Positions 15,360-48,135 of a stretch of 64,000 nucleotides of DNA are shown one piece after another (position 1 is the stretch's first letter; each line of letters opens with the position of its first letter). Under the pieces are notes generated by a model. The model did not search any database, was not told the origin of the DNA, and saw only the letters and a list, made by a program, of their open reading frames with translations. The stretch is from Brachionus manjavacas. Its lineage: Eukaryota > Rotifera > Eurotatoria > Ploima > Brachionidae. The position numbers were made by a program, and so were the translations under genes. The stretch is taken from contig JAHQIY010000005.1 in the NCBI GenBank assembly GCA_019054805.1, forward strand, positions 975,501-1,039,500, in the 5' to 3' direction.

Positions 15360-15600
15360 CAGACATCATAAACCTCAGAAGACCACTTTGGAAAAAAAAT
15401 TGCCAATATGGTTGTATTCATGGTAGGAACTTCAATTCAATGTCTCTGTATTATTTTTAGACTCCGACAAAGCCTTTGACCCTGTAGACCATGTAGTTAT
15501 TCTCGAAAAACTTCAGAAACAACTACCTAAATGGTTTACCTCATTGATTGCTGCCTATTTTTGCAATTGTAAACAGCGAGTAGTGCCAACAACACAGCAA
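15360..15600 (+). pseudogene. Reverse transcriptase fragment (second non-LTR family)
   Basis: Plus-strand reading gives DSDKAFDPVDHVVILEKL, then a QLPKWFTSLIAAYF stretch and QRVV. This matches the motif-A region (DFSKAFDTVDH...LL.KL) and the following W-x-x-S-Y-L-x-x-R-x-Q-x-V block of a non-LTR reverse transcriptase. The sequence differs from the 11.5-14.2 kb copy. Only this short piece survives. Confidence 0.7.
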
Positions 15601-16354
15601 CTGACTGGGTGGACCTTAATTTATAATGAAACTTGTGCACCAAAAACAAAATCTGACTAAATGTTGAAAAATGCTTAACAATCACACTTCCAAATTTCGC
15701 ATAATTTTTAACGATTCGCCAAATTTGGGCCGAAAGAGGACCCATGTTTGAAAGGTTGAAAGTTATCAATTGGTAGCCGTAGGTGGCTAGTGAAATTAAT
15801 TTAATTTAAATATTAAATTAAATAAATAAGAATCTAGTTTAAATATTATAATAAATAATCAAAAGCAGGAATTTTCTCTCATTTCCTTTCTTTAAAAACC
15901 AGCTCAGCTTTGAAAAAGACAAGCAAGCTTGATTGCTTGATGTGATGCGTATGCGAATCGTGTTTTTGGCATCGCATGAGCAAGCTGGTCGAAGCTAACT
16001 TATATTTATCAGATAGTGGAAATGTAATGCAATGTTTGATTCAATTTACATTACACATGTCAAAAAAATCACCACAACATTTACATTTAAATTACGGCTT
16101 ATGAGGTGTGAGCAACTTGAAATAGAGTCAATTAGATATTTTTTGAAATACGGTTTGAAATTTTGAAATTTTTTTTACAAAATTAAATGAAAATTGTGTG
16201 CTGACGAAAACAAAGTAAACAAAAATCCAGCATCTTTGAAAAATTTATTTTAAAGAAAAAATTTTAGTAATAATTGAATTTTTAATTGAATCGAAAATTT
16301 GCTAAAATAATTAACAAGTAGAAGGATAAAAATAAAAATTTTGTTTTTATTTAT
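15601..16354. other. Intergenic, 3' of the ROCO gene
   Basis: Mostly A/T. A mixed-composition patch at 15900-16060 has no reading frame I recognise. A minus-strand AATAAATAAA overlaps and follows the ROCO stop codon at 16355-16357, a plausible poly(A) signal. Confidence 0.4.
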
Positions 16355-19300
16355 TCAAAAAATATCAATCTCAACCTGATCTAATTGTAAGATTAATTTG
16401 CTTTTTTCTTGCTCAAATTGATTTTTCAAGGAACTTTTTTGATCTGAAATTATTTTGCCACCACTTTTCTCAGCATGTTCCGGGCAAAGCCACAAAATTT
16501 TTCCATTTTTCAACTCACATTTTTTCAAGCTAAAAAAATTCTCTTTCGAATTCTGTTCTACAAAGTAAAAATCATCTTGTTCATATTTATCAATAAAATA
16601 ATTTCTTAAACTGTTGTATGAATCGCTAATTTCAGTTGAATCTCCGCCAACCTTATCTTTTATTTCATCGAATAACTTTTTACCTTGTTCTGTGAACAAA
16701 ATTCCAAATTCATTAGAATAACTACCATTTCGTAAGATAGTCATCATTCGAAGAAGATAAGCGCAATTGGGAGTCAGAATTTTTGGATATAGAACTAAAA
16801 AATTAGAAAAATGCCAACATTCTTCATGTTCGCACATTGGTCTAATACAAATAATAAAATTCTTCAATTCTGAAGTTTCCAAATCTGATGATGGTCTTCG
16901 CACTATATCTTCATCTTTTTTTTCTTTTTTTTCATTTTTTTCATTTAGCTTTTTTTTGTAGTTGAATTTTTCAAATCTCTTTTCATCTATGAGGTCTAAA
17001 AAGAAAAGTCGAGGATAAGACCGAATGGTTGGATTTTTTTCTGAAAATTGAATCAATTGACGTAAAAATTTTCGCTGCGTTAACTCATATAACTCTTGAT
17101 AGGCATAATTATTTGATTCAATTATTGACATGGTTTTCTCAAGTTTTTTCTCAATCTTGTTCTCGTTGATTTTGGAAAGCTCTTTTTTTACATGTTTCAG
17201 AAGTGCTGACAATGGCTCTATACAATTAAAATAATATTACTATTTCAAATAAATGTTTTATAAAAAAAATTTGAATTTTCTTAGAATGATATTTTTTTTA
17301 TATTTAATTAATTTTTTTAGAATCCTTCAAAAATAAACTTCATAAAAACTCAAAAGTCAACTGTCATCTGAATTTCTAATTTCTAATTTGGAATAATATT
17401 TTAACCTGTAAATCACAGCTGTCCTCTAACTTTATCAAGAAAATAAATATGTTTGATACTTTATTTAAAAGAGCCCTTAATAATTTCTTTTTTGAATTTC
17501 TTTTAAAAAATTAAGTATTTATTTAATATAAGTAAGTCTAATTTATTTGAAATATTAACTTTAATCAATTAATAACTTAACTTTACAGAAGATTTGTGAT
17601 CAAATAATTTCTTGATAAGACATGTAAGAATATTCAAAAAAACTTAAAAATGTTTTTAAGAAATAGGTAGTAGTAGATTATACCCTAAATAACATAATTG
17701 ATTAATTTATTTATTTATTTTTGATCTATTAATTTGAGGATAACCTCAGACTCCTGAAAATGAATCAAAGTAACCAACCTTTCTTTTTAGCAATTGGGTT
17801 ACAGAAAAGATGAATAGAAGGAAGGGTAATAAGAGTGAATAAAATTTTGTCAAGAAAGAAAGTAACAAGAAAAAAGAAAAAAAATATCAAGAAAAATATC
17901 TAAAAGTTAAAATTAAATCAAATAAGTTAACCAATTTATTGATTCTAAAATAAGCCTTAAAAACGTTTAATACATTTTGTTTTAACTTGTTTACTTTTTC
18001 TTTTTTTCTTACTCTAAAGATAGACCTTTTCACAACTCCTCCATATCTCATTTTTTGTACTTTTTTTACGGGAATTCATATTTTTTTGAAAAAAAAATTT
18101 TTATCAATTTTGAAATCATCAAAAATTTTACGTAAAATTACGTAAGAAATTTTTTTGAGGTAAAATACCTTAAAAAAAGTAAAAAAAATTAAAAAACCAG
18201 GAAATTTTTATTTAAATTAAAATAAACATATTAAAATAAAATAACTTTTAATGATGCGTGGAATAAGGCTAACAACTCTTTAAAGACAGAAACGTCTACT
18301 ATAAATAAAATATATAAAAATTAAAATATTTTTTAAAAATATTAAAATTAAAAATGAAATTATTTTACTCTATTAAAAAAAATTTTTACTCTTTTTTTAC
18401 TTTAATTTACGATTTTCACTTCAAAAAACAATTTTTTGCGTAATTTTACGTAATATTTGGTAAATTTATTTTTGATGATTTGAAAAGTGAAAATAATTTT
18501 TTTTTTCAAATTTTTTTTAGAAAATTCTATTAAAAAGGGGAAAAAATATCGTTTTGTGGCCCTTTTGTGATTTACGTTAATTCACGTAATTTTTGGTAAA
18601 TTTACGTATTTTTTGAAAAATTTTTTGAAAAATTTCGTTAAAATTACGAAAAATTATGAAAATTAATGTAAAAATTTTTAAAATTAACCTCAGAACCATG
18701 TTTCGTAACAGTACTGTATTTTACATTTAAAAATGTTAGAATTATTTTAATTTATAGTACTATTCAAAAAAATTTTGTTTTATAATTTTGAATTTTTTTT
18801 CCTTTCGATGATTACTTTGAATAAGCAGAACTGGTTCAAGGGAATATTTTTGATTCTAGTTTTCCTACGAAGAATATTAATTTTGAAAAATTAGCTTGCC
18901 TCCAAACGACTTGAGCCAATTTTGATATTTCGATTTCTAAAAAAAAAGCTCCAAAAAAATTTGTTTATCAAGGAAGTTATAAGAATTTTGTAATTTATGT
19001 CAAAAAAATCATTATTTAAGAAGTTTGTCATCAAAATTAGATTTAAGAAAATTGATCTTTTTACAAGTAATTTTTTACTTTAAAATTGATCCTTACTATT
19101 GATCCTTACTGATTAAAGATAATTGGATTTTAAGTAAATTAAAATTAAACTTCTTCTTTTTACGTAAAAAATTTAATTCCAAATCAAAATTTATTTTTTA
19201 TTTGAATCTGAAAAGAAATATTTGAAACATCGCACTATTTCAATGTTATTTCAACAGTTCATATATTTTTTAACTCAAATACAAAAAATTAAATCATATT

Positions 19301-21392
19301 AAATTATTTTAAATAATAATTTTATTTTTTGGTGTCAAATCAAAATTTTGAAATTTTGTTACTTATTTTATTATGAAGAGAAGAAGAGTGCAAAATACGT
19401 AAAATGAAATTCTTTTTAGATTAGCTTAAAAAGAGAAATATTTCGAAAAATATATCAAAAATCATTTCTATGAAAAATCATGCATAAATTGGCATCAATC
19501 ATGCAATATTTCATTAATTTCCTAATTAGTTTTAATAAATAGTTACCTTTTAATTCATATTGAAAATTAACTTCGGGATAATTGCTACCCAAAAAGGCAA
19601 TTTCATTTTTGCGCCATTCATTACCAAGGCCGACTACGGCTTTTATGATCGGCAATTTGAGTGAAATGTGAGCAAATCTAAACTCTAGTTTACAATTTTG
19701 TGACTCGACATATTCATCCGAAACACATGCCACAATTACTTTTGCCAAGTTCATTCCTTTGGTTATCTCGCCAAACATTTGAGTTGTCGAGTCTAAATTG
19801 TCAACATCTAGCCATGCATTTATTCCATTGTCGGCAAAAAATTTCACCAAAATTCTTGGATCTAGTGCGCCAAGACTTTTTTTTGTGCCTTTTGAGCCTT
19901 TTTTAATAGCCTCATGGGAATTAGCCCAACAATAGCTGACAAAAACATCAGGATGCTTTTCCTCTCTTTTTTGCGGGTCAACTTGCACAATTTTTTCAAT
20001 TGACTCAAATGTGTCAGCTATTTTCGTAGCATATCTCTTGGGGTCCTGCATTATGACTCGAAAGTCAGCACACGCAGAAGCAAAAAGCGGATTTTGAAGC
20101 CAACTTCTAGCACCCAGTAGACCAAACTCAATCAATAGATAGGTTTTTTTGATTAGATTTTTGGATAATTCAAAAATTTGAACACTTCTTGAATCTGAAG
20201 CAAAATTGTCTGACACTCCGAATATCACCAATTTGGACTGCTTTATAACACTTGTAATCTTGTCAAGTTTTTCACTAGATGGAGTTTTACTGAACCAAAT
20301 TTTGTATCCTTGGGACTCGATGGCCTTGATCACATTCAAAGGGCTAATGGACTTGTCTGGATCAAGATCTGTGTCCTGCCCACAAAACCAAAACATTATG
20401 TCATATTTGAAATTGTCTTTTAAATTTCTCAAATCCCTGATCGAATATTCAAGATTCAGGTCTAGGTTGTTCGAATCATCTATGGGCATTATAGCCATCA
20501 GCTCCTCAACTGATATTACATGAAAACTTTTGGCACACTGCAAAAAAGGTGCTTTCATTTCACTGGCTCTTTTGAGCAAAGTAGAGCTGAACAAGTGCGG
20601 GTCACTTGACTGAGACTCAACACAATCAGGGCATGGGAAGCTGAAATCATATTTGAGTCCATTAAAAGAATCATTAATGAGTGTTTCAATTGTTTCGTGA
20701 ATAACCAGGACAATGTTTTCCGGTTTTACACCTTGGACTTTGACCTCAATTGAAAGAGAGTTTTTGGTCTGATTTAACAAAGCAAAATGGGAATTTTTTT
20801 TCAACAAAGAGCCTTTTTTCCAAATGATGGAATTGTCACCATATTGGAAAAGTCTAACTTGAATTCGATTAAACAACCCAATGGGCAGATAGTCAAATCT
20901 ATATTTAACTTTAAATTGTTTGATTTTAACCGGATACTTGGGATCAATTTCGGGCCAATCGAACTTAGGCTCAGCATCCGGCAATAAACAAGGCACGATG
21001 CTCATATTTTTGTCCGAAATAGGGAATGTTAGATCAAATTCTTCTGTCAGTTTGAGCATCCATTCATGCAAGCTTTTGTCATAGTCCTTCCATATTTCAT
21101 TTATTTTGTCGTGAGTGAATTTTCCATCTTCGATACAAGTTTCTTTTATGGAGACTATTTTGGCAAATGCATCCACAATCCATTGAGGATTTATGACTAT
21201 TTTATTTCGTAAACTTTGATTTTCAAAATACTGCAGTGAGCCGAGATCATTCAAAAATTTAACTACTTGACGAAATTCTTGTTCATCATATATTCCATTT
21301 TTTTCAGCCATCTGCATTGCTTTGTCTTTATTAATTATCGGCTCTTTTCTAGATTTTTCTCTTACACTCTTCTCAAAATTTAGCCAAGCTTC
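16355..21392 (-). CDS. ROCO gene exons 17-18: COR, TIR-like, TIR and conserved C-terminal tail
   Basis: Exon 17 (21392-19547) and exon 18 (17217-16355) encode about residues 1944-2845. COR: VVKFLNDLGSLQYF, VINPQWIVDAF, MSIVPCLLPD, then FDYLPIGLFNRIQVRLFQ and IIWKKGSLL. A TIR-like unit follows (about 2272-2368; YDIMFWFCGQD, GYKIWFSK, KLVIFGVSDNFA) that is probably inactive. Next is a canonical TIR (about 2425-2533): DVFVSYCWANS, NGINAWLDVDNLD, KVIVACVSDEYVES and NCKLEFRFA. Its Glu at about 2513 sits where NAD-cleaving TIRs keep their catalytic glutamate. Exon 18 continues with ELTQRKFLRQ, SYPRLFFLDLID and CIRPMCEHEECWHF, a tail I associate with invertebrate TIR-ROCO proteins. The 2329-nt intron joins K|E in phase 1. 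Confidence 0.85.
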
Positions 21393-24300
21393 CTAAAAAA
21401 ATATAAATTTATGTGTGATTTTATCTGAATTGTTGATATTTTGAAATTAAATATAAAGCTTTCATAAATTTGTGGCTTTAATTTCTTTTTAACACAAATT
21501 TAATTTCTTTTTCTACCAAAAATACTTTAATTAAAACATAGTAATTCTAAGATACTAGTATAATCTGTGATAAAATTTTTAAATTGTTAATTTACTGCAT
21601 GTTTCTAAAATTACTAAAAATATAAATGTTTTATTTTTTAATTTTAATAAATCAAAAAAATATAAAAAAGTGATAATGAGAGTTTAAATACAAGCGAGAA
21701 ATATATGGTTTTGAATGACGAAAATTCAATTAAAACAAGAAAAACAAAATATGGTCATTCATTTTTCAAATAAAGTGATATTATAAAATAACAGTTACAG
21801 TACTGCTACGATAAACTGTTTTTACGTAAATTTACGTGAACTAAAGTAATTACTAAAGTAAAAAAAAGTAAATTTCCGAAAAATTACGTAATTTTACTAA
21901 AATTTTAGTAAATTTTAGTAATTACATTTTAAATTACATTTTGTACAAGAAGTTTGTTTAAAAAAATTAGTTTTTGATTATTTTAATTTATTTTTGTTGA
22001 AAATAATTTATCATTTAATACAATATTTAGTTTTGAGTCTAAGGAATTTAAAGTAAAATTGAATAAAAATGTCCCTCATATCAACCGTTATTACGCGAAT
22101 TTACCCATTCTGATTCAAAAAAAGCTACGAACGCATCAATGACAGGAACTTTTTTGGACCATTGTTTAGAAAACAGATTGCAGTTTAAAATTATCTATAT
22201 ATTAAACATTTTTATTTTAAATTATCTATAATCCCCAGTTTTATTATAACATTGGTTTGAAACCCCTGAGTAAGTATTTGAGTTTTTACATACAGAGTGA
22301 TTTAAATTGAGAAAGACGAGTTAAAAATGCTACAACAAAAGCAAATAGAATTTTTGTTTTAATTAAAAAAAATTTAAGTATCCTTGCAGGAAGATTATCA
22401 AATTATTGTATTGTTCAATGGCTAGACCGCTCCTGGAGATTGCTGCCAGTGGATGGCACCCTTATTTATAAAAAGAATTAAATGAGCATGAGAGATTTCA
22501 ACGAAGAGGAATAAAGCTGATTCCTGAAGTGTGTGATTTGGATTATAAACAGAGTTTGACGAGGCTAGATTTAACTAACTTTAATGCAAGAAGATTAAGA
22601 GGTGATCTAACTCAGATGTACAAATTGAATTTGATAAAGGAATCAATTACAGCCCGATCACAGAATCTGGTAGCCGAAGATATTAACTGAAGAGAAAAAG
22701 CTATTGTCTAACTCGTGAACGAAAGAATCGTCTTCTTAGATATAAATCTTTTACAAATAGATTTCCGGAAGATGAGGTAAATGCATAAAATACGAATAGT
22801 TTCAAAGCAAAGCTTGATGGTTGGAAGGCAAAATAAAATGAAGCGAGTGATACAGCTCTTTAGAGCTATGCTTAGATAACCTCTGAGCTGCAGTTTAGAC
22901 TACAATTAGTACTACTAAAAAAATAAAGAATGAAAATTAAGAAAATTTTGTATGACTGGTCACGGATTTACCAAAATGATCTGAGAATAAGTTGAAATAA
23001 AAAGCCATACAAGGAATTAATATTTTAATCAAACAAATAGTATAATATTAATCAATTGTTCGACAAAAAAATATTTTTTTTTATATTAGAAAAAAAAAAT
23101 TTTTTTTTTATAGTTGATATTTTGTTTTTTTTAAAAATTATTTAAATGTTTTTTTAATTTTATAAAATAAATTTTTTTAATTCTATCCGAAATTATTTGT
23201 GTTTTAGATCAAAACTACAGCGCTATCGAATTTGACTTTATCGGCCAAAAATTCTTACTCTTAATTCTACATGGAAACCTAAGAAAGCCAATTTTTTAGG
23301 GGGGTTAAAAAAATAATTTTTTGACTACCCGCACTCAAAGATTAGAACAAAAATTATAAGTTGTATCCTTCTAGTTCTAAAAATCTACTAAATTTTTTCA
23401 ACTAATTTTCCAATTTAATTGTAAATTTTCATAAATTAAAATTTAATCCTAAATTGAAATTGGTGTTCATTAAAAATCGTTTTAAATGATAAAAATTAGA
23501 TTAATTTTCAATTAATTTATAAAAAACATATTTACCGGGATTTTTTCTCCAATATATTTTTCTTGTAACGTTGTTGTGATTAATTTTTGCTTTAGATCTT
23601 GAATACCAACTTTGGTGTAGCTTGATACAAAAAAGAATCCAACAATGTTTTTGTATCTTGATTGCAAATCCTCCTGGTCCAAAGAATATTTTGAAACCTT
23701 TGAGAAAATTTTACAAGAATTAAAAATAAAAAAGAAAAACTTCAATTGGTCTTAGCTACCGCAATGTTTTGAGAACTGAGACAGTAAAGAACCAGAACCA
23801 TATTTTTATTTCAATAGACTAGTTTGAAAGAGACATTATAGTAATTTCTTTTGCAAAAAAAAAATTTCACTTGCAAAAATCTGAAAAAGCAAATCAACTA
23901 TATTATGATAGAAAGAGACTATAATATTTAGCTTATGATCAAAAAAAATCGCTACTTGATAGTATTAATTTAAAGATTTAAAATTTTTTTAATTAATTAT
24001 TATTTCAATACAATTCTAATTTAAGAACTGTCAAAAGGAATTGTCACAAAATTTGGAGAAAATTTAGATGAATTTTAGTACAGAAAAAACCAAAGTAAAA
24101 TTAAAAGCTAAAATTTTTTCAAAATGATTAAAATTATTGCTGTAAATTGGTTCAGTAGGTGTGTGTGGTACTCTAAATCAAACTAGTGAAAAAACTTCAA
24201 TTTTGTAAAACATTATTATGTGTTTATATGGATTTATAGAAATTTTCGCATTAGATGATACATACATAGCTTGTGTCATCTTATTCGATTTACAGAACCA

Positions 24301-27300
24301 ATTTTAATAAAGAATTTTTTCCTGATTAAAATAAGTTATATTTTTTTAATAATAATTTTTTCAAAAGGTAATGGAAAGGTAAAGGAAAAACCTCAAAAAC
24401 TTACAGTTTTTGTAAAAAAATTGATAGTTAGAAAATTCGTCATTTTTCAACTATTTTCATAAAATTTATTGACTTGAAATTTTGAACACTTTTTGAGTCG
24501 AATACAAGCTTTAATTAAGTGGCATTTTGAAACTTTAAATAAAAATTTGACAGATGTTTTTCATAATTTCTTAATTTTTGCATTAGCTTTTTTTCAAGAA
24601 AAAAATATAGAATAATTTAAACTATCTTACTTTAAAAAGTATATCATTCAAAAGCTAAATTCATAAGCTCTAACGTAATACACAATATTTGTTATTTTTA
24701 CAGGGCCAATTTAAGTTCATTTAGGTTCCGATTTTCTGTGCATCTTTTTCTAAACTATTGACTGTTTTTCTATTTTTTTTCAAACAAAATTGGCATATCA
24801 GCCATCTTTTCTTCTTCAATTAATTTTTCTTCTGCAAACACGCTTATCATTTGATTGAGATTCTTCCAATAAAGTTAACATTTACCTTTCCAACAAAAAA
24901 CATGCGAAAAAAAAATAAATTATGGCCATTTTAATCAGGTAAAAATTCTCTACAAAACGATGCATCGAATCGGCATCAGAAGTTTCATTACCACTGAGGA
25001 CAAGATAAGCTTAGATATTTATCATAAGCTTAGAACATGTCAAAAAAATATTTTTATAAAGAGCATATTTTTTTAAAAGCTGGATAAAATTTCACTCTTA
25101 CTGGTAAATTTACATTTTTCTATTTGAAATTTTAAAATTTGGTTCAACCATTTTTGACCATTCTTTATAAAATCGTTTAAAATAAGAAGTAAAAATTAAA
25201 TTAAAAATTAATGAGCTTGAAAATTTTTCTACTCTAAACTAAAAAATAAATTTTCTAAGTGTCAAAACAAATCAAGCCTTTCACATTGACTTAAATAATA
25301 TATCTTGAAAAAAGTAACCAAGTTAATACAAAACTTATTAATAATTTAAGTTAATAAAATAAAATTACCTGATCAATATGAGTACCAACGACAAAAATAG
25401 GAGCACCTGGAGCATGACAACTAATGCTGCTCAACCAAAACTCTAAACCAGCATATTCACTGCCCAATCTGACATTCCAGACCAATAAATAAACACCTCG
25501 GGAAGTCAAGAAAAACTGATGTGTGTTGTAGTAAACACTTTGACCAGCAAAGTCCCACATTGAAAATGTTAAAGTAGACCCATCGTCCAAATCAACTTGC
25601 CAATCATCTATACTAATACCATCGGTTACTTCACTCGATTCATCTTCATTTCCTTTCAAAGCTTTTAAAAGAGTTGTCTTTCCCGCTTGACCAAGACCGA
25701 CCAGCATAAGTTTTGTTCGCTTGAGCTTGACATAACCTGAAATCATGCGTTTTAGATAAGTTAAGACAGAATTCATGCCTCTTCTGACAATTTCTGGTGG
25801 AGGTGTCACCAAAGATAAACAATTGTTCAAATCAAGCTTGTTCAAAGGCAAATTTGCCAATTCCGGACTTATATTTTCCAATAGGACACAATTACTAAGT
25901 ATCAGTGTATTCAGTTTTTTCAGCATTTTGACTTCATCTGGGATTTGAGTTATTGCCTGAAAACTCAAGTCCAAAGTTAATAAATTTGTCATTTGAAAAA
26001 TTATGATGGGAAAATCAGGGCCGATGCGAAGAAATTTTTTAAACAAAAACGCATTCATTCTAATAATCTCCTCTGACTCCAAATATCCATTTGAATTAGA
26101 GTCGAAATGAGCAAATAATTTTTCAATGAAATCATGACTTAAAAATTTTGATTTACCTATTTCTTTGGCAAAATTCTCTTTGCTAATTAATGAATTATTT
26201 CTGCTATATTTATCCATGTCAAATAATGGAATTCCACTCATTTTTAAATTAATCATATTCTCTGGGTTGAGATTGAGAAAAAAATGACCAAAAGAGGACC
26301 GGGAAATCCGAATTGTTTCAATTCTGTCAGGCATTTGAACCATCATGCTGGCATCATTTATTTCTAGGTTTTCGATCTCTAACATTTCCAGACTTGACAT
26401 CTTTTTGAAATTTAAGTCCGCTTCATCTAATCGGTTCTGGTAAAGAAAAATTTTCAGCTTGTCCAATTCAAAAATTGAAGGGGGTATATAATTTAAATGA
26501 TTGTACCATAATTTCAGATGAACCAAGTGATCGAAATGGTTGAAAAAATTTTTGTCGTCAATCCGAAGAGGAACGTTTATCAAGACTAGTCCAACAATAT
26601 TGCGATATTTGGACGCAAAATTTGAGTCTAATTTGAATGCAGTCTGAAAGCCAATGATACCAAATCGCAAGCAAAATTTGGAATATTCATTTAGTTTTTT
26701 CTTTAGTGAAAATGAACGATCATTTGATTGATTGTACTTGTGATCTGCCAAATAACAAAAATAGCATCTTCCCAAAAGGCCAGGGCTCTTTTGAAAGCTG
26801 TAAACTTTGGAATTTTGCTTTTCTTCACAGATTAGATTCAGAAATTTTTTTAGGTTAAAATCAAAATTTTGAGTTGAGCTTTGATTTTTATTGATGAAAA
26901 GTATAAAATATTCGTAAAATTTTCGTAAATATGTACGAATAATTGCTGTTATTTGAAATTCGTCCAAGTCTGAGTCTTGGTTTTCGAATATTTTGCAATT
27001 GTTTGGAATAATTGTTTTAAACTTAAAAATTTTTTTAAATATTAATTTATTTAAGAATTAGCAGGAAATTTTTGTCTTTTGATTCTTTTGAACTGGTATT
27101 GCTAACGGGTGTCCAATTAAGCTTGACCGAAATTTTGAATAAAAAAAAAATTTGAAAGGAATGTTTGTTTCCGATGAAATTTTATACAGATAAAGAATGA
27201 GTACTTATATATAATAAAATCGAAAACTCTTCGATAGGACAACTAGGTCACAAGGAACCCTGATGAGCTTGAGTTCTAGTCAACCTTAAAAATGTCCCCC

Positions 27301-30300
27301 AGAGTTACTTTTTACCAATATAGTATCAAATACCGTTAAAAAAAGAATTTTATCAGCTTTCCAATGCCACCTAGTTCTAATTTTTCCGATGCTCAAACGA
27401 TGAAATTATACTAAGTTCAAAAAATGGGATTTTGTGAATAAAATGTGATTACTTTTGAATGGAATGAATTTTTATTACCAAATTTTGTCTGATCATAATA
27501 AATACTCAATTTTACACAAAAAAGTGAGAATAAAATTCTTGATAAAAATTTTAGACACTTCTTTACCATTTTATACCATTTTTTTTTATTTAGTTTTTTT
27601 GTTCTATTTTACATTTCTAAAAATAATTGCGTAATTATATTTCTAATTTTAACATGCTAAAGTATTGAGTTTTAATGAAACACACAATTTCAAAATTTCA
27701 AAAAAGTTAAATAGAAAAAAAAACTTGCCAAGTTATTAAAAAAATTTTAAAAATGTTTAAATAATTTAGAAAAATAAAATTTTGGTGATTTTTTCAAATA
27801 AATTTTGAACTACATGTCATAAAAAATTAAAAAGGGCTCATTTTAATATTTTTTCATTGCTCTTTAAAATAAAGTATCAAACTTATATATTTTCTTGATT
27901 GAAGTTAGAGAACAGGTGTTTTAGATTTTATTTTGTATCAATAATAAAAATAGTAATTGTCCCTTTTCTATCCTAGTGGATAATGAGGAGCCGCCCATCT
28001 CCTTTTCATGTACCTTTTTGAGCAATGGCTTCGATCTGACACTGAGGCTACTGCATCGAGCTGATCATCTACACCCCTATTATTACCCAGTTTATTTTAT
28101 AATGAAAGAGGTTTAAAAATTCATCCCGTATTGCAGAAATATTTTGAAGATTTTTCACCCACAGCGGTCTTTGAACCCTCGATCCTCTTCTTGCATGACA
28201 AACCCGCAAACCATTCGGCTATACGGGCTTTTATTTTGTATCACCTTTTTTAAAAATATTTATTTGTATTTGAATACAATACAAAACCATTAAATTAGAT
28301 ATTTTTTGATAAATTTTTTTCAACAAAATATTGAGTATCTTGGTACAAATAGAAAGAAATCTTGAAAAAATGTCCAAATAAAGAATCAAGTCGATTTTAT
28401 CAAAAAAAATTAAAAAAGCTCATTGAAATTGATTGAGTCTGAAGGGGGTTGTAGCAAATGAAATCAATGTGTCTGATTGACACTATATGATTTGGAGGAC
28501 TATAAAAACTATTTTTTATAATATTTATTTGTTACGGCTAATTTCGGCTGAAGGTTAAGTGTGATACACTATAACCCATAAATTTAAGGATATTCAGAAA
28601 GAAAATCTGCTTTTTTGTTTATTATTTTTGTGAACAAAAATTTCAAAATTTTGTTCATAACAAAGATGAAATCCATTCCATTTAGTTTTCATTTCTGTGG
28701 CAGAAGTGAAAGGAAATCCATCTTAAAAAACTACTTATAAACTATTAGCCACTTTTTTACTTTACATTTAATTTTTTACACTTTTTATTCTGAAATTCTT
28801 ACTCTATCTAATTAATTTTCGTATTTGAAATTTTGTAAATTTTTTTTAATGCTCAAAAGAGAGTGCTCTTTCTTCAAGCAGCAGACCATAGGTCACATTT
28901 TAATTTAAATAAATAAATAAATTTATGTGGTAAGTGTTCAAAATTTTTAAGTAATCAATAAAACTTACTTTTGAATTTAAAACCAAATATGAAGATAATA
29001 ATATGACGATTAGTTCACTTGAATCAATCGATATATCAGTCATTGGAATACCTTCCGTATTTAACAAATGGGAATAAACAGTTAAATCATCATTTAGTCT
29101 GGTCATACAACACATATGCAAATGGATGTTTTTAAACAGAGTTTTTTTATTCCAAATCTTGAGATCATCAAAGTTTCTTGGTAGCAATAGGATTCCTCTA
29201 GTTGGGGAGCTTGTTTGATCACAGATCATTTTAACCTTGTTTTCCATTATCAAAGCCGCGTTATGCATTAGATAATTATTAAAATCAGAAATCTTAGCTT
29301 GTATAATTGGAAATTGAGTGCATGACTTTTGAATAATCACATTTTTATCCCCTTTAAATTCACGTAAGCTCATTCCACTTTTTTGCTCCTTTGCAGAAAA
29401 AAACATTAAAACTTTAAATCATATAAATAAAATACAAAAACAATTTACTTGAGTAAATACATCAAATGGAACTGCTTTTAGATCGTTCTCTTTTAAATAG
29501 TCTTCCCAATCGAACTTTTTTTCATAGTTTTTATGATAATCTAAAATTCATAGAAAAAAATTTTTTTTTCCTTTTATTATGCTAGAATAAAAATTATTAA
29601 AACCTTTAGGAGGGTCAAATTTAATATTTTTATATTCGTCTGTGATGGGTCTGAGAGTTGCTTGATCTTTTCGATATTCAGCCCACCCAACTGGTCTAAA
29701 ATCAAGGTCATTTATATCAGCCCAATAGTTAAAATTATCACTCCATCCATCAAAATGGATCAAAACAGAGTTACCATTTACTTCCACTTTAAACAAAAAT
29801 AATACTTTTTTCAACAAATTTTATGCTCTTAGTTACTTATTGATGCAGGAGCAATTAAATGAACATTCTTACGATCTCTGGCCTCCAGTCGATGATGAAT
29901 CAAATAAGATAGATCATTTTTTCTATTATAATTCTTAGTTGAATTACTGTATTCAACAATTTTTGAAAAATCGTATGACTCTTCTGATTGAGGGATGCCC
30001 AATATCGGAACGAGATTTAAAGAACCATACTCAATTTGTAGCATGGTCACTCCATTTAGAGACACAATGATTGAGTTAAAATCGCAATTCTAAGAAAATT
30101 TAAAAAATTTTTTATTTTTGATTTCATAAATTTACTTTTTTAACAGATTCGATTCTTATCTCATCTCCAAATTTTATTTTGGCATTTAAAGTCTCATCAC
30201 CTCTTGGTTTAACTTTAATAAATTGACGATCTGTTGATTTGTTTATCTGAAGATATTTCAGATCAAATAATGAAATAAATAGTTTCTCCTGGTCGTCATT

Positions 30301-33300
30301 AGTACTTTTTTTATTTTTTATAAATTTTATTTTCTAATTTTCGTTTCAATTTACTTACTCTAGAAATATCAAAAAAATGTTGTTTTTTTTCAATAGTTCG
30401 TAATCTGAGAACTTTATAGCAAAAATTTCATAATCTTGAAGAATTTTGTTATCATCGATTTCGGGTTTATAAAAATTTAGGCAAATGTTTAAAAGATCTT
30501 CATGAAAATTTTGCCATAAAACCAAATCACTTTTGATAAATCTTTTGTACATTTGGAAATAAACCATTTTAAGACTTTTTTGTTTATCCAAGTCTAGATA
30601 GCAGTCGGAACATTTTGAATCATTGGATTCATAAAATTTAAAACTGTGGCTACATATTTCAATAATTTCATGAAAATAATGAAAATCGATCTGGCAGAGC
30701 GTTTCGTTTAAACTAATCAAGTCATCTTATTAACAATTATTAAAAAGTTAAAGATTTGTTTTAGTTAAATTAATTTTTACCTGCATCATTTTTGCTCAAA
30801 AGTTTTATTTCGTTTTTTTCAAATTCTAAAGGATGATTTGTCTTTTCAAATTTGATCTTAAGAAAATTTTTAAATCTGTTAAAAATTATCAGTGTTAAAA
30901 ATTTACTTTTTTGGGGACATGAAATTTAGTTAGCAAATTTTTTATATACAAATAAAAGTTCATGTACAGTACTCTAAAATGACTTAAATATGATTTGTCT
31001 TCAAGAGATATATTTTTTTCAACATCCGTCATTCTTACACTCAAAGAAACTAAAAATTAATAGATTAATGAAATTTAAAAATTCGCTTCTATTTTTTTTT
31101 ACTTTCTCTGTCAGAAAATTTAATTAATACATAAAAATAAGCATCTTCATATAAAAAACCATTCCTCCACAATTTAAGACATGTTTTAGTGTCAAAATGC
31201 ATACAGATGAATTCAGAAAAAGCGTTGAAAGATAATGGAGAAAACAATTGCCATACCATTTTGTACTCCAAATCTTTGCATTCTTCATCCCAGTCCTGAG
31301 TTTTTTAAAATGTAAAATTTTTATTTAAAGATCGGGTTTCAGAATTGAAAAACTGTAAATTTTGCTCGAAAATAAATTAGGAATTTTATGTCACCAAACA
31401 GTCAAACCTGCCAACACTCACTTGATATGACTTGGTAAGATAACAGAAGATTTTTTTTGTGCTATTGAAGAAATTAAATGTGTGTTGTTGGTTAGACTTG
31501 ATTGTGTTTTAAGAGAAAACACTTCCCACAACCTAAAAATTAGCTTTCACAACCTATGAAAATATTCTGATCGAAACATCAAAATTTTTTTTTAAATGAA
31601 AATTTTATCAATGCAATCTATAAAAATTAGTCATTAACACAAAAAAAAATATTTTTTAATTTTTTTTGGTCTTGCTCTTTTTTTCTTACGATTTTTTTGT
31701 TTTTTTTTAACATTCACTGCGTTTGTGAACGCTCCAGTACCTTCATTACAATTCACTTCATTAACAATTATCGAGTCTTCATCAGAACTATCATATTTTT
31801 TTGAATATATTTTTCGAACAGTACTTTGAATAATACAGCATTTTAAAAGCAAAAGGAAGAATTTTTGGCATTTTGAAATTGTAATTTTAAAATATTTTTA
31901 AATTTACGCATTATTGTAAATTAAGTATTTACAACCAAAAATTTAGTTTTCACAACTTAAAAAAAAAATTTAGCAAAGGTTGTAAAAACTAAAATAAAGG
32001 TTGTAAGTGCTAATTTTTTAGGTTTTAGGAACAACTGACCCGTGTTTTAACCATATTCGGGTGTGGGTTGATTAGGCAAACTCAATTAATTATAGTAATT
32101 AATTTTTGAAGGCTTCTTAGTTTTCTATTTTTTTAGTGTAAGTCTAAAATTTGTTCAAAGTAGAAGGATGCAAGGATGAACAATTCATAGAAAATTATTA
32201 AAATAATACAAAACTCATAGAAATAAATTTCAATAGACAAATACTCATAGATTTATTTTTTATTGAAATTGTGTAACAGCTTTAAAGAAAAATGTATAAA
32301 AAAACGAAAAAATTTGATTAAAATTTATTAATTTAAAGTTGTTTTAAGAACAATTTTTTGTTTATTTGCAAGAATAATGACTAGCAAAATTAATAAAGCA
32401 GGAAAAGTTACACCTAAATTTATTTTTTTGCATTTTTAGTAGCTATTGGAAATTTCTTAATATATTGTTAACTTGTTAACTATCAAAAATTATGAGAGAT
32501 TATTATTCTTAAAGAAAATTTTCAATGAATTATTCAAAATGTCATCAGACAGTTATTTAGTAATTAAAAAATGGGCATAGTTTCTTGATATTTACTTAAA
32601 TACAGTTTTTAAAAATATTTGTTTCGGAAACCCGGCCATAATTTTTTTGAATACTTACAAAAGGATCTGTTTGAATTTTAGTCAACTGAAATAATGGAAT
32701 TATTTTTTCTTTGTTAACAACAAGTATCAAATTATTTTTTTTCAAAAACAAAATCAAATTATCAAAAATTGTATCAGTAGGACATAAATTTTTAAATTTT
32801 TCTTTCAACTCCTTATGATTCCATATCGGAATGTTAGCACCAAAAATTTTATCCAGTGTTGGATCATTTGTTTTTCCTTTAAATAAAACATCGACTATAT
32901 TTTTGAACCAACTCAAATCAGTGATTAAAAATTTTGATTTTTCATCAAAAAAAAATCGCCCTCGGGCACTTTCAGCTCTTGCATATCTTAAAAAAAGCTG
33001 GTCAAAATTCTTCGATTGTAACTCTTTTAGCTTTTGATTAGACAAAAATATTTGATTTAGCTCGTCAATTGTTAAAATGCATCGATTTTCAAAATTTAGT
33101 GTTTTTGTAATCAGCTCATCTACTTCTATTTCTGTGTCTTCACATTTATCTCCATAGTACAGAAACCAATTGAACATGAAAAAAGAATTATCGAATAAAT
33201 AAGTGCTTAGTGTTCCATGTGATTTTGATTCCAAATCAAGGTTAGATGAAAAAGTTTGTAGCTAAATTTTTTTTTATTCTAAAAAAAATTTAAATAAATA

Positions 33301-36300
33301 TTTCAAACTTACCGATGCTTTTGTTGAACAGTACTTATATACATAAATAATCCAGTTGCATAAAATGGCAGCAGCTCTGGAAATTTTTCCGACATAATCC
33401 GGATTAAAATTTTCCATTTCGATAATTTTTTTTACTTGTGTCAATTTATAATCATTTACTGAGTCTAGATCAAAACATTTTAGCTGGCTGATGAAATCTG
33501 TTGTGTTAATAAGCTTAATAAAATTCTGAAAATTTGGAGGTTTCGAGAACAAATAGCATAGGGCCTCGGCTACTGACAGTGCAGCGGCTGGTGGAGCTTT
33601 GAAGGATTTTATCTCAGCTATGTCACTTTTACGAATGGAATCCAAACACTCTTGCATTTTAGAAATATATTCAGTTAATTTTTCAATGATTTCTTCATAT
33701 TTTGGTTTAATTCTGCTACTAATAAATTGGTCTACAACCTTATTATTTTTTGGATCAATTATGGCAAAGTTTAGAGCATTCATTATTAATTCGATCTGCT
33801 CGGCCAAATTTATTTGCTCACTCACCTCAATTTGAAGCTGAACATTTAATTTTGAGAAATTTCTTCAAAAAATTTTTTAATAAAATAAAATCAAAATACA
33901 AAAATTGAATAAAAGAGTGCCGAAAATTTTATAATTTTGAGTAATAAAAATAAAAAAATAAAAACTTGTGTCAAATTTTTTTTAAAGAAAAAATTGAATA
34001 GTGCAAAGTAGAACAAAAATGAAAAAACTTTTTCTAAAAGACTAAAATTGGTACCGTAAAATACATTTAATGTATCATTTAAATCATTTGTGAATACCTT
34101 GCGATGTCATCGTTAGAAAATTAATTTTATTCTGGAAAATTAATTTTATTAGGAATTCTAAATGATACACCCGGGGGAAACTAAAAATTATTTATTTAAT
34201 AAAAAAAAAAACTAAAATGCAATTGTTTCGAACTATTAATAAAAAAATAAACATAAATCGGTCGAGATCAATTTCTACAAGAAGAATTTTAAAGAAAAAT
34301 CATACTGATATTAAAAAAAAATGAGTGAGCACTTTGGTGTAGATTCTCGGTATAGATTAGTGAAAATACCTACTGAAGTCAAAAATGTGAAGCTGGGTCA
34401 AAAAAGAAAAATACCTCAAAAAAAGTAAATAATTGTTTATAAGTTTGGCTATTTTGATAATCTTTTTGTCAATAAATCAATTTAAATAAATTATTTTCTA
34501 ATATATTAAAATAAATTTGAAATTAATTTAAAGTTCTTTATTCAATTGTGTTTATAACTTTATTAATTTTTTTTCAAAAACACAATTACTCATTTGGAGT
34601 ATTGGCTGTTATGTGACCAGACCAGATTTTTTTAGACTAGTAAACTTTTTAAAAAACTAGTAAAAATTATTTTAATTTTAGTAATGCTTCTTATTTTGGT
34701 CACTTAGATTTCGAAAATAATTACAATTAAATTAAAATTAAATTTTATTATAAGTACAATGATTTAATTTGAATTTTAACACTGTAACTGATAAAAAGAT
34801 GATTTTTATTTTATTTATTTTTATTATTTAAACTATTATATTAAATTAAATTTTAACAATTATAGCAAATTTTTGACAAGTTTGCCACGTACTGGTCACA
34901 TAATAGGCATTTTTATTTTTTTGCTCTAAGATTCACAATTTTGAATTATTTTATTCTCGAATTGTTAGTTAAACTAAGATTTACAATTTTATATTATTTA
35001 CACAATTAAGTGAGGTATAGACAATGAGAATATAAAAAATTTAAAATCCTTTTTGAACTCTATCATAATTTGAATTTATTTAGCACTTTTCCTTTTTGCA
35101 CTTTCTGTACTTTATGTACTTTTTCAGAATATTATTTTATTTGACACTGTTCCTTTTTGTAGTTTCTGTTCTTAAAGGTAATTTAATCATTATGTTAAAA
35201 CTAAAACGGAGTCCGGGCGGAGCCCTGGTTTAGGGATTCGGGTATGCTAGTGGTAAGAAAAATATTAGTTAAATTTAAAATTGATTTTTACAATATTGAT
35301 TAATTAAAATCTTTTTTATTTCCATTAAGTACAAAAAGTAAAAGGAGTAAAGAAAGTATAATAAGGAACAGGGACAAATAAATTATTTTATGAAAAAATA
35401 GTTTTTTAAAAGTTTAATCTCATTGTCTATCCATTAATTAAGTATCAAAAGTTTTAGAGAAAGTTTTTTCAAAAATGGCATCAGACCATTAATTTATACA
35501 AAAATTAAATAATTAAAATTTAATCAAAATTTCATTTCCTAACCAAGCATAGTTGAAAAAAATTATAAAACTTTATGTAAAATTTTTAAAATTATAAAAC
35601 TTAACGCAATTAAAGACATTTTAATAACAATTACTTACGTCAAGTAGATGTTTTGATCAAATTTAATTTCATCTGTAACATTTTTAAGTTTTTCAAATAA
35701 AGCGCTACGAATTTTATCATTTAAGTTGTCATTATCTTTTCCAACACCAAGTACCAAAATGCTAGAAGGGAGAATATTTTTTGCTAAAACTACCAAAAGA
35801 CGGGATAAAATGGATTTTGTATTTGTTTCTATTTCTTCACTAGCATCGAAAGTTAAGACAATCGAATTTTTTTCGCTTATAAAAAATTCAGCGTATGACT
35901 TTAAAAAATAATTAAAAATTTCAACAAAAAATTTAAATCTTACTTCAGAGCATTCATATAAATTTAAAAATTTGTTTTTGCTATTTTTTAATCTTCCATA
36001 TTTAAAAAAATGATTCTGTTCATTTTCTGCGGGCAAAATTGCTTGTGAGCTGCCAATTTTTTCTGTCAAATTTGGACTGAAAATGTCTGAATTAATTATA
36101 ACGCATTTTGCTTGATCAAAAATTTGCTCTTAAAATCAAAATTTTAATTTTTTTAACTTAAAATTTTTAATTGTTTTTCTAACCATATTTAAGTAAATTT
36201 CTTGGATCATAATTTAAAGAAACCATAAGACTTTCTGATATCCTGTCACAGCATGAAAATCTTTCATTTAGCTTTTGATGGTTTTAAAAAGTAAAATTTT

Positions 36301-36712
36301 CATAAAAAATTCAAAATATATTCACTTTTATTGAGGGTATGCTCAGAAGATTTCTATCAAAAATTTTATTCCAATAGTGAAGTGACCAAATTGAAATACT
36401 TGGGCATCCGTTTAAAAGAAAATGTTCCGAATTTTTTCTCTTGAAGTTATCATCTTTTATCAGAGTTTGTCCAAACTTCCAAAAAAGCAGATCACTTGCT
36501 GTTTTAATGTTCGAAAAGTCGAACAAATCCGCATCTTTAAACTCACTAGATTCAACTAAAGCATCAAGATTTACAAGCTCATTTTGGTTAAATTTTTCGC
36601 AATAGTTGGCTACATTAATTGGTTTGGAGGCATTCAAAAATTTATAATTTTTGTTATCAAATGCTCTTGTCTTTGATGAAAAAAAATTATCTAAATCCAA
36701 TATCTCGTTCAT
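16355..36712 (-). CDS. Giant ROCO-family protein, 18 exons, ~2845 aa (whole-gene model)
   Basis: Proposed exons in coding order: 36712-36326, 36271-36184, 36128-35639, 33862-33313, 33261-32659, 31295-31103, 31049-30907, 30856-30781, 30725-30359, 30304-30136, 30089-29837, 29786-29604, 29540-29449, 29388-28969, 27021-25369, 23697-23536, 21392-19547, 17217-16355. Every junction is GT-AG, every phase matches, and the sum is 8538 nt, an exact multiple of three. Domains in order: degenerate Roc-like, dynein-stalk-like, COR-like, MBT, LRR plus EF-hand, Roc, COR, TIR-like, TIR, conserved tail. The weakest joint is exon 14 to 15, across 1.95 kb. Exon 15 has no upstream ATG, so it cannot be a first coding exon, yet a small unseen exon could split this into two genes. 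It is probably a cytoplasmic GTP-regulated signalling or immune-type scaffold; function is inferred from family. Confidence 0.7.
18091..18500. repeat. TTACGTAA-rich foldback repeat
   Basis: The segment around TGAAATCATCAAAAATTTTA and TACGTAAAATTACGTAAG (18110-18150) recurs inverted at about 18420-18485 as AAATCATCAAAAATAAATTT, then ATTACGTAAAATTACGC. The arms are imperfect. Similar palindromic ACGTAA words occur at 21820-21900, 46140-46195 and 47020-47040. Confidence 0.5.
19201..19295. repeat. Decayed arm of the foldback family
   Basis: Shares ATATTTGAAACATCG, CAATGTTATTTCAACA and ACAAAAAATTAAA with the repeats at 14.4-14.7 kb and 15.2 kb. Lies inside ROCO intron 17. Confidence 0.5.
22380..22900 (+). 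pseudogene. CR1-like reverse transcriptase C-terminal remnant (ROCO intron 16)
   Basis: Plus-strand reading gives MARPLLEIAASGWHPYL, then NEHERFQRRGIKLIPEV and LTRLDLTNFNARRLRGDLTQ. These match the RP.LEY...W.P.L......E..QRRATKLI and L....RR.RGDL...YK signatures that end ORF2 of CR1-like retrotransposons. In-frame stops are present. It lies antisense in ROCO intron 16 (21393-23535) and is a different family from the 7.4-kb element. Confidence 0.8.
23536..27021 (-). CDS. ROCO gene exons 15-16: LRRs with an EF-hand, and the Roc GTPase domain
   Basis: Exon 15 (27021-25369) and exon 16 (23697-23536) encode about residues 1339-1943. Leucine-rich repeats (LKLWYNHLNYIPPSIFELDK, later LLTLDLSFQAITQIPDEV) are interrupted by a canonical EF-hand loop, DSNSNGYLESEE, at about 1645-1656. 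After TPPPEIVRRG comes an intact Roc GTPase: P-loop GLGQAGKTT (about 1780-1788), switch II WDFAGQSVYYNTHQFFL (from about 1827) and the GTHIDQ guanine-specificity region (about 1884-1889). Exon 16 completes Roc with FFVSSYTKVGIQDLKQ. Exon 15 ends in CAG|GTAATT and exon 16 begins AAAG|GTTTCA, both phase 0. The Lys and Thr of the P-loop are present, so nucleotide binding is expected. Confidence 0.85.
23698..25368 (-). other. ROCO intron 15 (1671 nt)
   Basis: AT-rich sequence between the two Roc exons. No repeat or reading frame was recognised, although a decayed insertion could be hidden in it. Confidence 0.5.
27985..28229 (-). mobile_element. tRNA-derived SINE, copy 1 (ROCO intron 14)
   Basis: On the minus strand it opens with GCCCGTATAGCCGAATGGTT, an A-box-like start, and about 50 nt later has GAGGGTTCAAAGACC, a B-box-like element. 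The spacing is that of a tRNA head. The ~170-nt body includes GAAAAATCTTCAAAATAT, CTGCAATACGG, TTTCAT.ATAAAA, CTGGGTAATAAT and GGTGTAGATGATCA.CTCGATG. A second copy of the same order lies at 50495-50712. No cloverleaf closes fully, so it is not a functional tRNA gene. Confidence 0.7.
28969..30856 (-). CDS. ROCO gene exons 8-14: linker and MBT-type domain
   Basis: Exons 8-10 encode a charged region with CSDC (exon 9), comparable to the CPDC in the second half. Exons 11-13 (about residues 1075-1198) together make an MBT-like repeat. Exon 11 supplies HRLEARDRKNVHLIAPASI, exon 12 supplies VLIHFDGWSDNFNYW and FRPVGWAEY, and exon 13 supplies KFDWEDYLKENDLKAVPFDV. These match the MBT pattern KLEA.D..NP....A.I, IHFDGWS..YDYW, HPVGW and F.W..YL...A.P..LF. 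The domain is visible only after removing introns of 50, 63 and 60 nt, which supports the splice model. Exon 14 adds GMSLREFKGDKN, as at the start of another MBT unit, then an unrecognised segment. MBT folds bind methyl-lysine in chromatin proteins; whether this one does is unknown. Confidence 0.7.
30907..36712 (-). CDS. ROCO gene exons 1-7: degenerate Roc-like, dynein-stalk-like and COR-like segments
   Basis: Starts at a true ATG (36712). Exons 1-3 (residues 1-322) contain SIVLTFDAS and SSILVLGVGKDNDN, which resemble the late strands of a Roc GTPase, but there is no P-loop and no GTP-specificity motif. Exon 4 (about 322-505) has a coiled coil leading into APPAAALSVAEALCYL, then NFNPDYVGKISRAAAILCNW. 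That closely resembles the microtubule-binding stalk of dynein heavy chains (PP..V...EAV, F.P..V...S.A...LC.W). Exons 5-7 (506-818) look like a COR domain: FLITDLSWFKNIVDVLF, the DPFDWDEEC junction, and LKLWRNGFLYED matching WKKGSLLKKN in the second COR of the same protein. Short introns are 50-55 nt; two introns are 1776 and 1363 nt. Confidence 0.65.
31296..32658 (-). other. ROCO intron 5 (1363 nt) with a basic-tail fragment
   Basis: Contains a 72-codon minus-strand reading frame at 31634-31852 ending in KKQKNRKKKRARPKKIKK. The end resembles the AT-hook-like tails that follow SWIM fingers in MULE-type transposases (compare VQVKKRGRPPKS at 55.2 kb). Too short and compositionally biased to call firmly. 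Confidence 0.35.
33863..35638 (-). other. ROCO intron 3 (1776 nt)
   Basis: Largely A/T. A duplicated word, GAAAATTAATTTTATT, occurs twice at 34117-34151. A plus-strand mini-frame at 34321-34428 (MSEHFGVDSRYRLVKIPTEV, then KLGQKRKIPQKK) resembles the tail of SWIM-finger transposases. A mixed-composition patch near 35205-35255 (GGAGTCCGGGCGGAGCCCTG) is unexplained. Confidence 0.4.
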
Positions 36713-38375: not shown

Positions 38376-40112
38376 TTAATTTTTTGATGAATTCAAATCA
38401 ATCTCTTTTAAAAATTTGGTCAGACCATTTACTCTCAGATTTGATTCAATTTTCTCCAAGTCACCAGCGAAAGATTTCGAAGATTTAGAACAAATGCTTC
38501 CTAGAATGGAATCTAATTTTGTCAAATCAGGCCTTGCTCGAGAAAATTTAAACTGCATCACGTCTGGTACATTTTCCCTCAAAAAGTTTCTATACATTTG
38601 TCCTTCACTGTGTTGTTGGTTCAAGAATGAGACGAAAATTAGGCACGCTGGATAAACATTCTTTCTGTATTCCATAAACAACTCAAAAAATCTCCAACTC
38701 TTTCCATCTTTTGTTTCTGCATCTGTGTTTTCCTCTTCATCTGTGACAATGATAAAAGTTTTGATTTCTTCTTTTTTGTCGAAATATGGAACCAAACTAG
38801 CAGCCGGTGAAGTCGATCCGCTCGCTCTGGTATCATAAGCCACTTGCAAAACATCTTTTATATCTTTTGGCTCTAGTGTTGATTTAAAGTTTTGATGATT
38901 AAAAAACGATAGTTTAGCTTCGCAAATTGTTGCCAATAAAGAACTAATGATGGTGGATGTTCGAATGGCCACATTCATTGAGCTGCTTGCATCTCCTAGA
39001 ACAGCAACTGGTGATGAGAGTGTCGAACGAAAGCTCTTCAGGTTTTTCTCTGCAATTGGAATTAATAAAGATAGCAAAGATTCTGAATTTAATGTATTGT
39101 TTTTTCCAATGTAGTCTTTAAATAACAACAGTCTTTCCATTAGTTTTCCATATCCCAATTCCACTTTTTCACCTCTTTCCAATCTGGCTCGAATTATGTC
39201 ATCTACTTCAGGGCAATGTAAATCTTCATAATACCACAGAATTGTATCCAGCTTAGCTTGTCTTTCAGCAATTACTTTTTTGGATTGATTGTTCAAAGAG
39301 GTTTTAAAATTTTTCACTAGTCTATATGGAATGTCAAAGTCGGAAATTACTTGATTCACATTTTCACTGTTTATATTGCGACATTTTTCAACTTTTGAAC
39401 CTTCAGGAGGACTTTGACCATAACAAAACGGCAAAAACCATGGAGCGTTTGGAAAGTCTTTTTCCGAATTAAAATGACAAAGATCTGCTAGTTTTTTCCA
39501 CGGTTCAGTTGGTAAGCAAAGGGCAAAAAACTCGAAATCCTTGGATTCCAATTTTCTCACCCATCTTTTGAATTTGTTTGCCATTGCTCCACTAAACGAT
39601 CCAGCTTTAGGCTTAAGAGCTTCTAAATTGTGAATGTTTTTTTTAATCTCGGCCATTTTCTTGGTCTTAATCACAGCTCCTGATTTGGTTATTCTCTCTA
39701 TTTTTTTGTCAATGGCTCTCTTCTGTCTTTGACTGTCCAAAATAGTCACTGCTTTTAGAGCATCTGTAAATCCATTTTCACTGTTTAGAAAATAATCGAT
39801 CAGTTCATTGTCGTTGCGAGCAAACGCCGCAGCCAAAGCCCTTGATCTTGCATTAGGTACCAAATCGATAGAGTACTCTTCAAAGGCTATCATGGTAGCG
39901 AGATATTTTTCGCGATTGGTACATTGGGCGTCATAATGCTGATCAAAAGTGGCATTTTTGGAAAAAAATTCTGTCGAGTCTTTGTTAATGTCTAAATTAA
40001 GGGGTTCATCTGCTACTTCTTTGGCTTTAATTGGACTTTTTCTCGGCCGGATGTTTTTCGAGGTCTTTTTGGACTTTTTACTAAAAAATTTTTTATTCTT
40101 GTTAGGTCGCAT
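38376..40112 (-). CDS. vWA-domain protein with intact MIDAS (TROVE/Ro60-like architecture)
   Basis: 578 residues from the ATG at 40112; the frame is open upstream but without an ATG. The Lys-rich N-terminus looks nuclear or nucleic-acid-directed. A helical region follows, including NARSRALAAAFARNDNELID (about 86-105), then a Trp-rich middle part. The C-terminal third is a von Willebrand factor A fold with a complete metal-ion site: DASSS at about 374-378, Thr in SGSTSPAAS at about 434, and Asp in IIVTDEEEN at about 458. A helical repeat domain followed by a MIDAS vWA domain is the layout of Ro60/TROVE proteins, but I cannot trace the TROVE domain itself, so orthology is not claimed. Intronless. 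A splice-acceptor-like ATTCAG lies just before the ATG, so a 5' exon is possible. Confidence 0.75.
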   Translation of the reverse strand: MRPNKNKKFFSKKSKKTSKNIRPRKSPIKAKEVADEPLNLDINKDSTEFFSKNATFDQHYDAQCTNREKYLATMIAFEEYSIDLVPNARSRALAAAFARNDNELIDYFLNSENGFTDALKAVTILDSQRQKRAIDKKIERITKSGAVIKTKKMAEIKKNIHNLEALKPKAGSFSGAMANKFKRWVRKLESKDFEFFALCLPTEPWKKLADLCHFNSEKDFPNAPWFLPFCYGQSPPEGSKVEKCRNINSENVNQVISDFDIPYRLVKNFKTSLNNQSKKVIAERQAKLDTILWYYEDLHCPEVDDIIRARLERGEKVELGYGKLMERLLLFKDYIGKNNTLNSESLLSLLIPIAEKNLKSFRSTLSSPVAVLGDASSSMNVAIRTSTIISSLLATICEAKLSFFNHQNFKSTLEPKDIKDVLQVAYDTRASGSTSPAASLVPYFDKKEEIKTFIIVTDEEENTDAETKDGKSWRFFELFMEYRKNVYPACLIFVSFLNQQHSEGQMYRNFLRENVPDVMQFKFSRARPDLTKLDSILGSICSKSSKSFAGDLEKIESNLRVNGLTKFLKEIDLNSSKN

Positions 40113-48110: not shown

Positions 48111-48135
48111 TAAAAGGATTTTATCAAAAATTATT

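Follow-up and report, generated by a model that had tools for sequence, protein, structure and literature searches.

A ROCO-TIR gene of the rotifer Brachionus manjavacas with a dynein-type microtubule-binding domain and an MBT repeat in its N-terminal half

The 64,000-nucleotide stretch of Brachionus manjavacas DNA analysed here (contig JAHQIY010000005.1, positions 975,501 to 1,039,500; hereafter the window) carries on its reverse strand a gene for a 2800-residue ROCO protein with TIR domains. The assembly, of 114 Mb in 61 contigs, contains several related loci. The window copy serves as reference and is labelled A; its paralogs are B and C, in tandem on contig C5, D on C6, E on C2 and F on C15. 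The gene is real: in the 18-exon model all 17 introns have GT...AG borders, with a weak donor after exon 12 (GTTTTA), and every junction is in phase. An earlier note, made from the sequence alone, had placed the gene between 36712 and 16355 with 18 exons joined in phase, which our model bears out down to the end of exon 14 (28969) and the start of exon 15 (27021); the length of about 2845 residues given there came out at 2800. Our own first model, of 17 exons and 2815 residues, was dropped, having overlooked a 45-nucleotide in-frame GT-AG intron of phase 0 (35943-35899) at which B, C, D and E splice in the same place; the single stops that B and C showed under that model are explained by this omission, since both lie inside the intron. 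Residue numbers follow the 18-exon model, whereas domain searches were run on the 17-exon model, whose numbers are reduced by 15 beyond residue 190.

The C-terminal half of the protein has the core of a ROCO protein, a Roc domain followed directly by COR. Pfam recognises Roc (residues 1730-1843, E-value 9.9e-21), COR-A (1898-2035, 7.5e-32) and COR-B (2057-2197, 2.7e-30), all far above cut-off, confirming the one intact Roc-COR of the earlier note. The window Roc carries nucleotide-binding motifs (P-loop, WDFAG and THID), and the Roc motifs are complete in five of the six copies, F being without the [NT] of G4. Ahead of Roc lie a weak LRR match (5.5e-06) and an EF-hand (residues 1592-1615, 0.005-0.018), both below their Pfam cut-offs, the latter with a canonical loop by eye. 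Two matches to TIR, a domain type that serves in immune and cell-death signalling, follow COR, the first (PF01582) weaker than the second (PF13676, TIR_2, 3.4e-11; hereafter TIR2). A C-x-x-E motif is present in TIR2 of all six copies, with its Glu aligned to a Glu of the CRISPR-associated TIR protein Cat1, and we take this to be the catalytic-type (NADase) position. The TIR that had been predicted at the C-terminus is thus present, but it is preceded by a weaker one and followed by 287 further residues. The Pfam scan of the protein revealed neither a kinase nor an AAA+ motor domain. Elsewhere in the genome, a separate LRRK-like ROCO locus (L033/L034, C16:426001-446000) has ankyrin-like, LRR, Roc, COR and kinase frames by eye; TIR_2 occurs at 43 places among the genome matches listed, and on contigs C26 and C48 (G000) TIR_2 frames of equal or near-equal score stand in arrays about 6.5 kb apart.

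The N-terminal half encodes two further domains. The first is the dynein stalk or microtubule-binding domain (PF12777, MT; E-value 2.9e-11, 43.5 bits against a cut-off of 24), which was found in all five copies tested (A-E; best E-value 1.4e-13). A family profile of this block retrieved dyneins from PDB at 6.6e-22, and eight of the ten top chains carry names of axonemal or flagellar dyneins. Searching the genome with MT gave 26 places, four of them within A, B, C and D; 16 of the other 22 were translated, and 12 of these carry the dynein core pattern used. The closest stalks by blast (29-36% identity) were L047 for A, L036 for B and D, L041 for C and L037 for E; the stalks nearest to A-D lack the insert and are short, a form that we presume to be axonemal. 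The earlier note overlooked this domain, as it did the EF-hand loop and the additional TIR. The stalk domain is the oddest part of the protein and an odder acquisition than MBT or TIR; we recognised no report of one in any ROCO protein in a partial literature search.

The second, a histone-reader-like domain, is an MBT repeat (PF02820; E-value 1.7e-16, 60.6 bits against a cut-off of 22), found in all four of A-D, so that the MBT domain of the earlier note is confirmed, with the repeat in exons 11-12 and its arm in exons 13-14. A four-member MBT profile matched L3MBTL1 in PDB at 2.6e-45, summed over its repeats, and a genome search with MBT gave nine places, three of them within A, B and D. Of the MBT cage positions, the window copy (29604-29891, reverse strand) alone among A-D keeps D, N, F and W (with Y changed to F); B, C and D have all lost the N, and B and C lack F or W as well.

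The remainder of the N-terminal half is probably a degenerate copy of Roc-COR, demonstrated for COR-B only. A profile of the C-half COR-B scored 12.8 bits (D), 12.7 bits (E) and 2.9-3.8 bits (A, B, C) on the COR-B-like block, and 10.5 (D) and 10.3 bits (E) on the longer COR-like sequence, against 6.4 bits for the best of 748 reported shuffles of the N-terminal COR and 8.4 bits for the best of 979 reported shuffles of the Roc-like block. Among 559 decoy open reading frames (ORFs), the C-half CORs were followed by two ORFs of the family's own COR-B-like block (14.9 and 14.4 bits), the C16 ROCO (11.9 bits) and an unrelated ORF (7.6 bits), and in the reverse search the C-half CORs (9.0-12.0 bits) came ahead of the first unrelated match (6.8 bits). 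The COR-A-like exon, found in A, B, C, D and E only, was not significant by itself (D 6.1 bits against a shuffle maximum of 8.8), and the hhalign path between the two CORs is collinear over 190 columns (P 0.15). The Roc-like block is borderline: the corrected block of copy E reached 8.7 bits in the expected register, where the highest of 1757 reported shuffle scores was 8.4; the other copies reached at most 2.0. The reverse Roc search ranked an unrelated C-terminal-domain block first (6.5 bits; corrected 15.7 bits), which we read as a composition match and which counts against the Roc reading. No P-loop or DxxG was found in the first 330 residues of five copies; a G4-like pattern occurs elsewhere in B and C. 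Of the duplicated Roc-COR unit proposed earlier, the COR-B part therefore stands on profile, shuffle and decoy comparisons, Roc is borderline and COR-A is collinear only. It should be noted that blocks named Roc-like in the identity, hhalign, dN/dS and first profile tests contain up to 15 intron codons. Pfam searches with the COR-like block of four members gave COR-B in D alone (0.033, below cut-off), no match in the window copy, and matches to unrelated families in B (0.11) and copy E (0.016); PDB gave four chance-level matches (0.24-1.8) for this block. A SPRY-like guess for residues 786-1020 found no support, the sole match, a poxvirus RNA polymerase family (0.0017, below cut-off), being read as chance.

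Table 1. Features of the ROCO-TIR gene, with positions in the window and the evidence for each
Feature	Position	Strand	Evidence
Whole gene, 18 coding exons, 2800 amino acids	16355..36712	-	exon model, paralogs
Exon 1, N-terminal stretch, LRR-like by eye	36326..36712	-	exon model, inspection
Borderline Roc-like stretch lacking P-loop and DxxG, exons 2 (36126-35944) and 3 (35898-35639)	35639..36126	-	
Dynein stalk/microtubule-binding domain, residues 311-454, in exon 4 (33862-33313)	33331..33762	-	Pfam PF12777, PDB
Exon 5, COR-A-like block	32659..33261	-	collinear, alone not significant
Exons 6-7, COR-B-like block	30907..31295	-	profile searches
MBT repeat, residues 1044-1100, exons 11-12; arm in exons 13-14	29671..29891	-	Pfam PF02820
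Exon 14, which closes the N half	28969..29388	-	exon model, paralogs
Exon 15: pre-LRR, LRR, EF-hand, Roc	25369..27021	-	exon model, Pfam
EF-hand loop, residues 1600-1611	26068..26103	-	weak Pfam
Roc GTPase domain, residues 1730-1843	25372..25713	-	Pfam, motifs
COR-A and COR-B, residues 1898-2197	20496..21392	-	Pfam
First TIR-like region, residues 2251-2309	20160..20336	-	Pfam PF01582
Second TIR (TIR2), residues 2414-2474, with Glu 2468	19665..19847	-	Pfam PF13676
Exon 18, C-terminal 287 residues	16355..17217	-	exon model, paralogs; no intron ahead of it in paralog E

A comparison of the paralogs supports the earlier proposal that MBT, Roc-COR and TIR belong to a single composite gene. B, C and D match the window copy end to end and E matches all but the MBT stretch, while the clear match of F is confined to the C half; the N-half alignment of F (28 short exons) was unreliable and left out of use, its sole N-side match having an E-value of 0.013 at residues 1132-1270. 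Spliced alignments cover 2791 (B), 2720 (C), 2779 (D) and 2716 codons (E) with no in-frame stops in the corrected models, C having an aligner-made gap in exon 5. Window introns are shared in position (within 2 residues) and phase at 17 of 17 junctions in D, 15 in C, 14 in B and six in E, the first-junction match of D being doubtful because D 'exons' of 1 and 8 nucleotides are aligner artefacts. At 14 of the 17 junctions the intron is 60 nucleotides or shorter in at least one of B, C and D; the exceptions are the first (190 nucleotides in C), one near residue 920 (71 nucleotides in B, displaced by 3 residues) and the last (883 nucleotides in C). E has no intron at this last junction, its final two exons being fused into one reading frame. 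At the junction of exons 14 and 15, B has a GT-AG intron of 50 nucleotides in the same place and phase, too short to hold both a promoter and a poly(A) site, and we therefore infer that the MBT half and the ROCO half form one gene.

Most blocks are under constraint, as seen from ratios of non-synonymous to synonymous substitution (dN/dS) ranging from 0.05 to 0.53. These ratios could be estimated for 51 of the 90 comparisons of a block between two copies among A-D, dS being saturated in the other 39. Identity of B, C and D to the window copy is lowest at residues 786-1020 (29-31%), 37-62% in the N-half domain blocks, 72-80% in Roc and 88-95% in TIR2, the best conserved block. That TIR2 is far more conserved than the N-half blocks fits a fixed output joined to a diverging sensor. 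Between the tandem paralogs B and C, dS is 0.16-0.18 in the COR-like block and 0.11 in TIR2 and at least 1.2 or saturated in other blocks, and gene conversion has occurred between them at C5:1681750-1682363 (C) and C5:1703081-1703680 (B). TIR2 dS from A to B and C is 0.42-0.50; for D it is saturated, with a dN of 0.05-0.08.

The domain order thus runs from an N-terminal half (LRR-like, degenerate Roc-like, dynein microtubule-binding domain, COR-like) through MBT to a C-terminal half (LRR and EF-hand, active-type Roc, COR), two TIRs and a C-terminal domain, the LRR-like, Roc-like and COR-A-like parts being inferred members. We posit, at even chances, that this one gene encodes a ROCO-TIR protein working as a cytosolic receptor with a microtubule-tethered sensing arm, a GTP switch and a TIR output. 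The N half would be a sensing or tethering arm set on microtubules or axonemes via the dynein-type domain, its divergence suggesting that it does the sensing; the C-terminal Roc-COR would act as the GTP switch, possibly tuned by calcium, and the conserved TIR would provide the output, probably through assembly and NAD cleavage or through recruitment of other TIRs. Location in the cell, ligand and catalytic activity are all conjectural here. Quite unlikely, in our estimate, is a more specific version in which a dead Roc-COR copy holding the dynein domain between its Roc and COR parts links cytoskeletal or ciliary state to a TIR NADase under a GTP switch, with MBT, its cage nearly intact in the window copy alone among A-D, as a methyl-lysine sensor. 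Should the dynein-type domain bind microtubules, the ROCO-TIR protein would have its own anchor to the cytoskeleton, which would connect microtubule or cilium state with TIR signalling. The copies make up a small diversifying family with constant output and variable front end, suited to studies of invertebrate receptor evolution.

Several observations weigh against such a receptor. The dynein match stops at profile position 209 of 344 and coiled coil 2 (CC2) is not recognised, so microtubule binding may be lost; dS of the dynein block is saturated in all six pairs among A-D (proportion of non-synonymous differences, pN, 0.29-0.36), so that selection on it was not measured. A paralog search found no MBT match in copy E over residues 868-1217. 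Of 44 hhalign comparisons between the halves, three involved overlapping sequence and none of the other 41 was significant, nor was the corrected Roc-like block (P 0.18). The single TIR2 sequence found no TIR in PDB; the five-member profile alone did so (best Cat1, 6.3e-06), and gene conversion (dS 0.11-0.50) accounts for part of the high identity that TIR2 shows between the three copies on C5.

The unrecognised CC2, together with the modest identity of the dynein block to the window copy (44-52% in B, C and D, 28% in E), would also fit a fold of dynein origin that now serves to bind proteins and makes no contact with microtubules, the remainder acting as a receptor; we rate this somewhat short of even, as the core aligns with dyneins over its length. 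That the protein is instead a structural or ciliary scaffold, with the dynein domain, MBT and Roc-COR anchoring a complex to the microtubules of the axoneme and the TIRs serving for protein binding alone, appears rather unlikely: the predominance of axonemal and flagellar dyneins among the top PDB chains and the short, presumably axonemal forms of the nearest stalks favour it, but the catalytic-type Glu in every copy, the conservation of TIR2 and a front end that differs among copies do not. Two adjacent genes, one with the dynein stalk and MBT (exons 1-14) and the other a ROCO-TIR gene in its own right (exons 15-18), are very improbable, for although the gap between exons 14 and 15 measures 1.9 kb in the window (28969-27021), 3.4 kb in C and 2.0 kb in E, and a first Met at position 48 (B, C), 13 (D) or 104 (E) of the exon-15 part would permit a start there in those copies, the window copy has no Met before position 208, the short intron of B occupies the same site and phase, and an Aplysia study gives Mbt, ROC, COR and TIR within one gene (PMC9334734).

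Other features of the window include a forkhead gene (58601-59860, forward strand, E-value 7.4e-40; FoxC-like by eye) in a 48% GC stretch of otherwise AT-rich sequence, a transposase piece (12298-12792, forward strand, PF13843, 7e-11; piggyBac-like by eye), and two reverse-transcriptase-like scraps by eye (15427-15660 and 22472-22690, forward strand), the second within the intron between 23536 and 21392. Two long frames on the reverse strand (38376-40157, in part vWA-like by eye, and 4923-6374) have no Pfam match at 0.01, and a 130-bp unit at 48126-48400 is present in two copies with 97% matches.

ROCO proteins have been grouped as LRR-Roc-COR, kinase and DAPK types (part of a review, PMC6337361), and up to forty ROCO domain combinations are given for animals (in the part consulted of PMC11378527). 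The window protein shares its LRR-Roc-COR core with LRRK1/LRRK2-type ROCO kinases, from which it differs in having no kinase recognised by Pfam. Like dynein heavy chains it has the core microtubule-binding domain; unlike them, it has no AAA+ motor domain that could be found and no recognisable CC2. With L3MBTL/SCM proteins it shares the MBT repeat and arm and, in the window copy, most of the cage, and it differs from them in the single repeat found and the cage losses of B, C and D. The earlier note recognised no described family; however, the consulted part of an Aplysia immunome study (PMC9334734) presents TIR genes with LRR, ROC and COR, among them the 'TLR' genes LOC101848126, with an Mbt repeat, and LOC101845043, with an EF-hand, which share one clade in the authors' tree. 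Those accounts do not mention dynein and give no second Roc-COR, and the likeness is drawn from the description of these genes. The MBT-ROCO-TIR combination is therefore already in print and not new, and the Aplysia genes perhaps belong to the same family as the rotifer gene described here.

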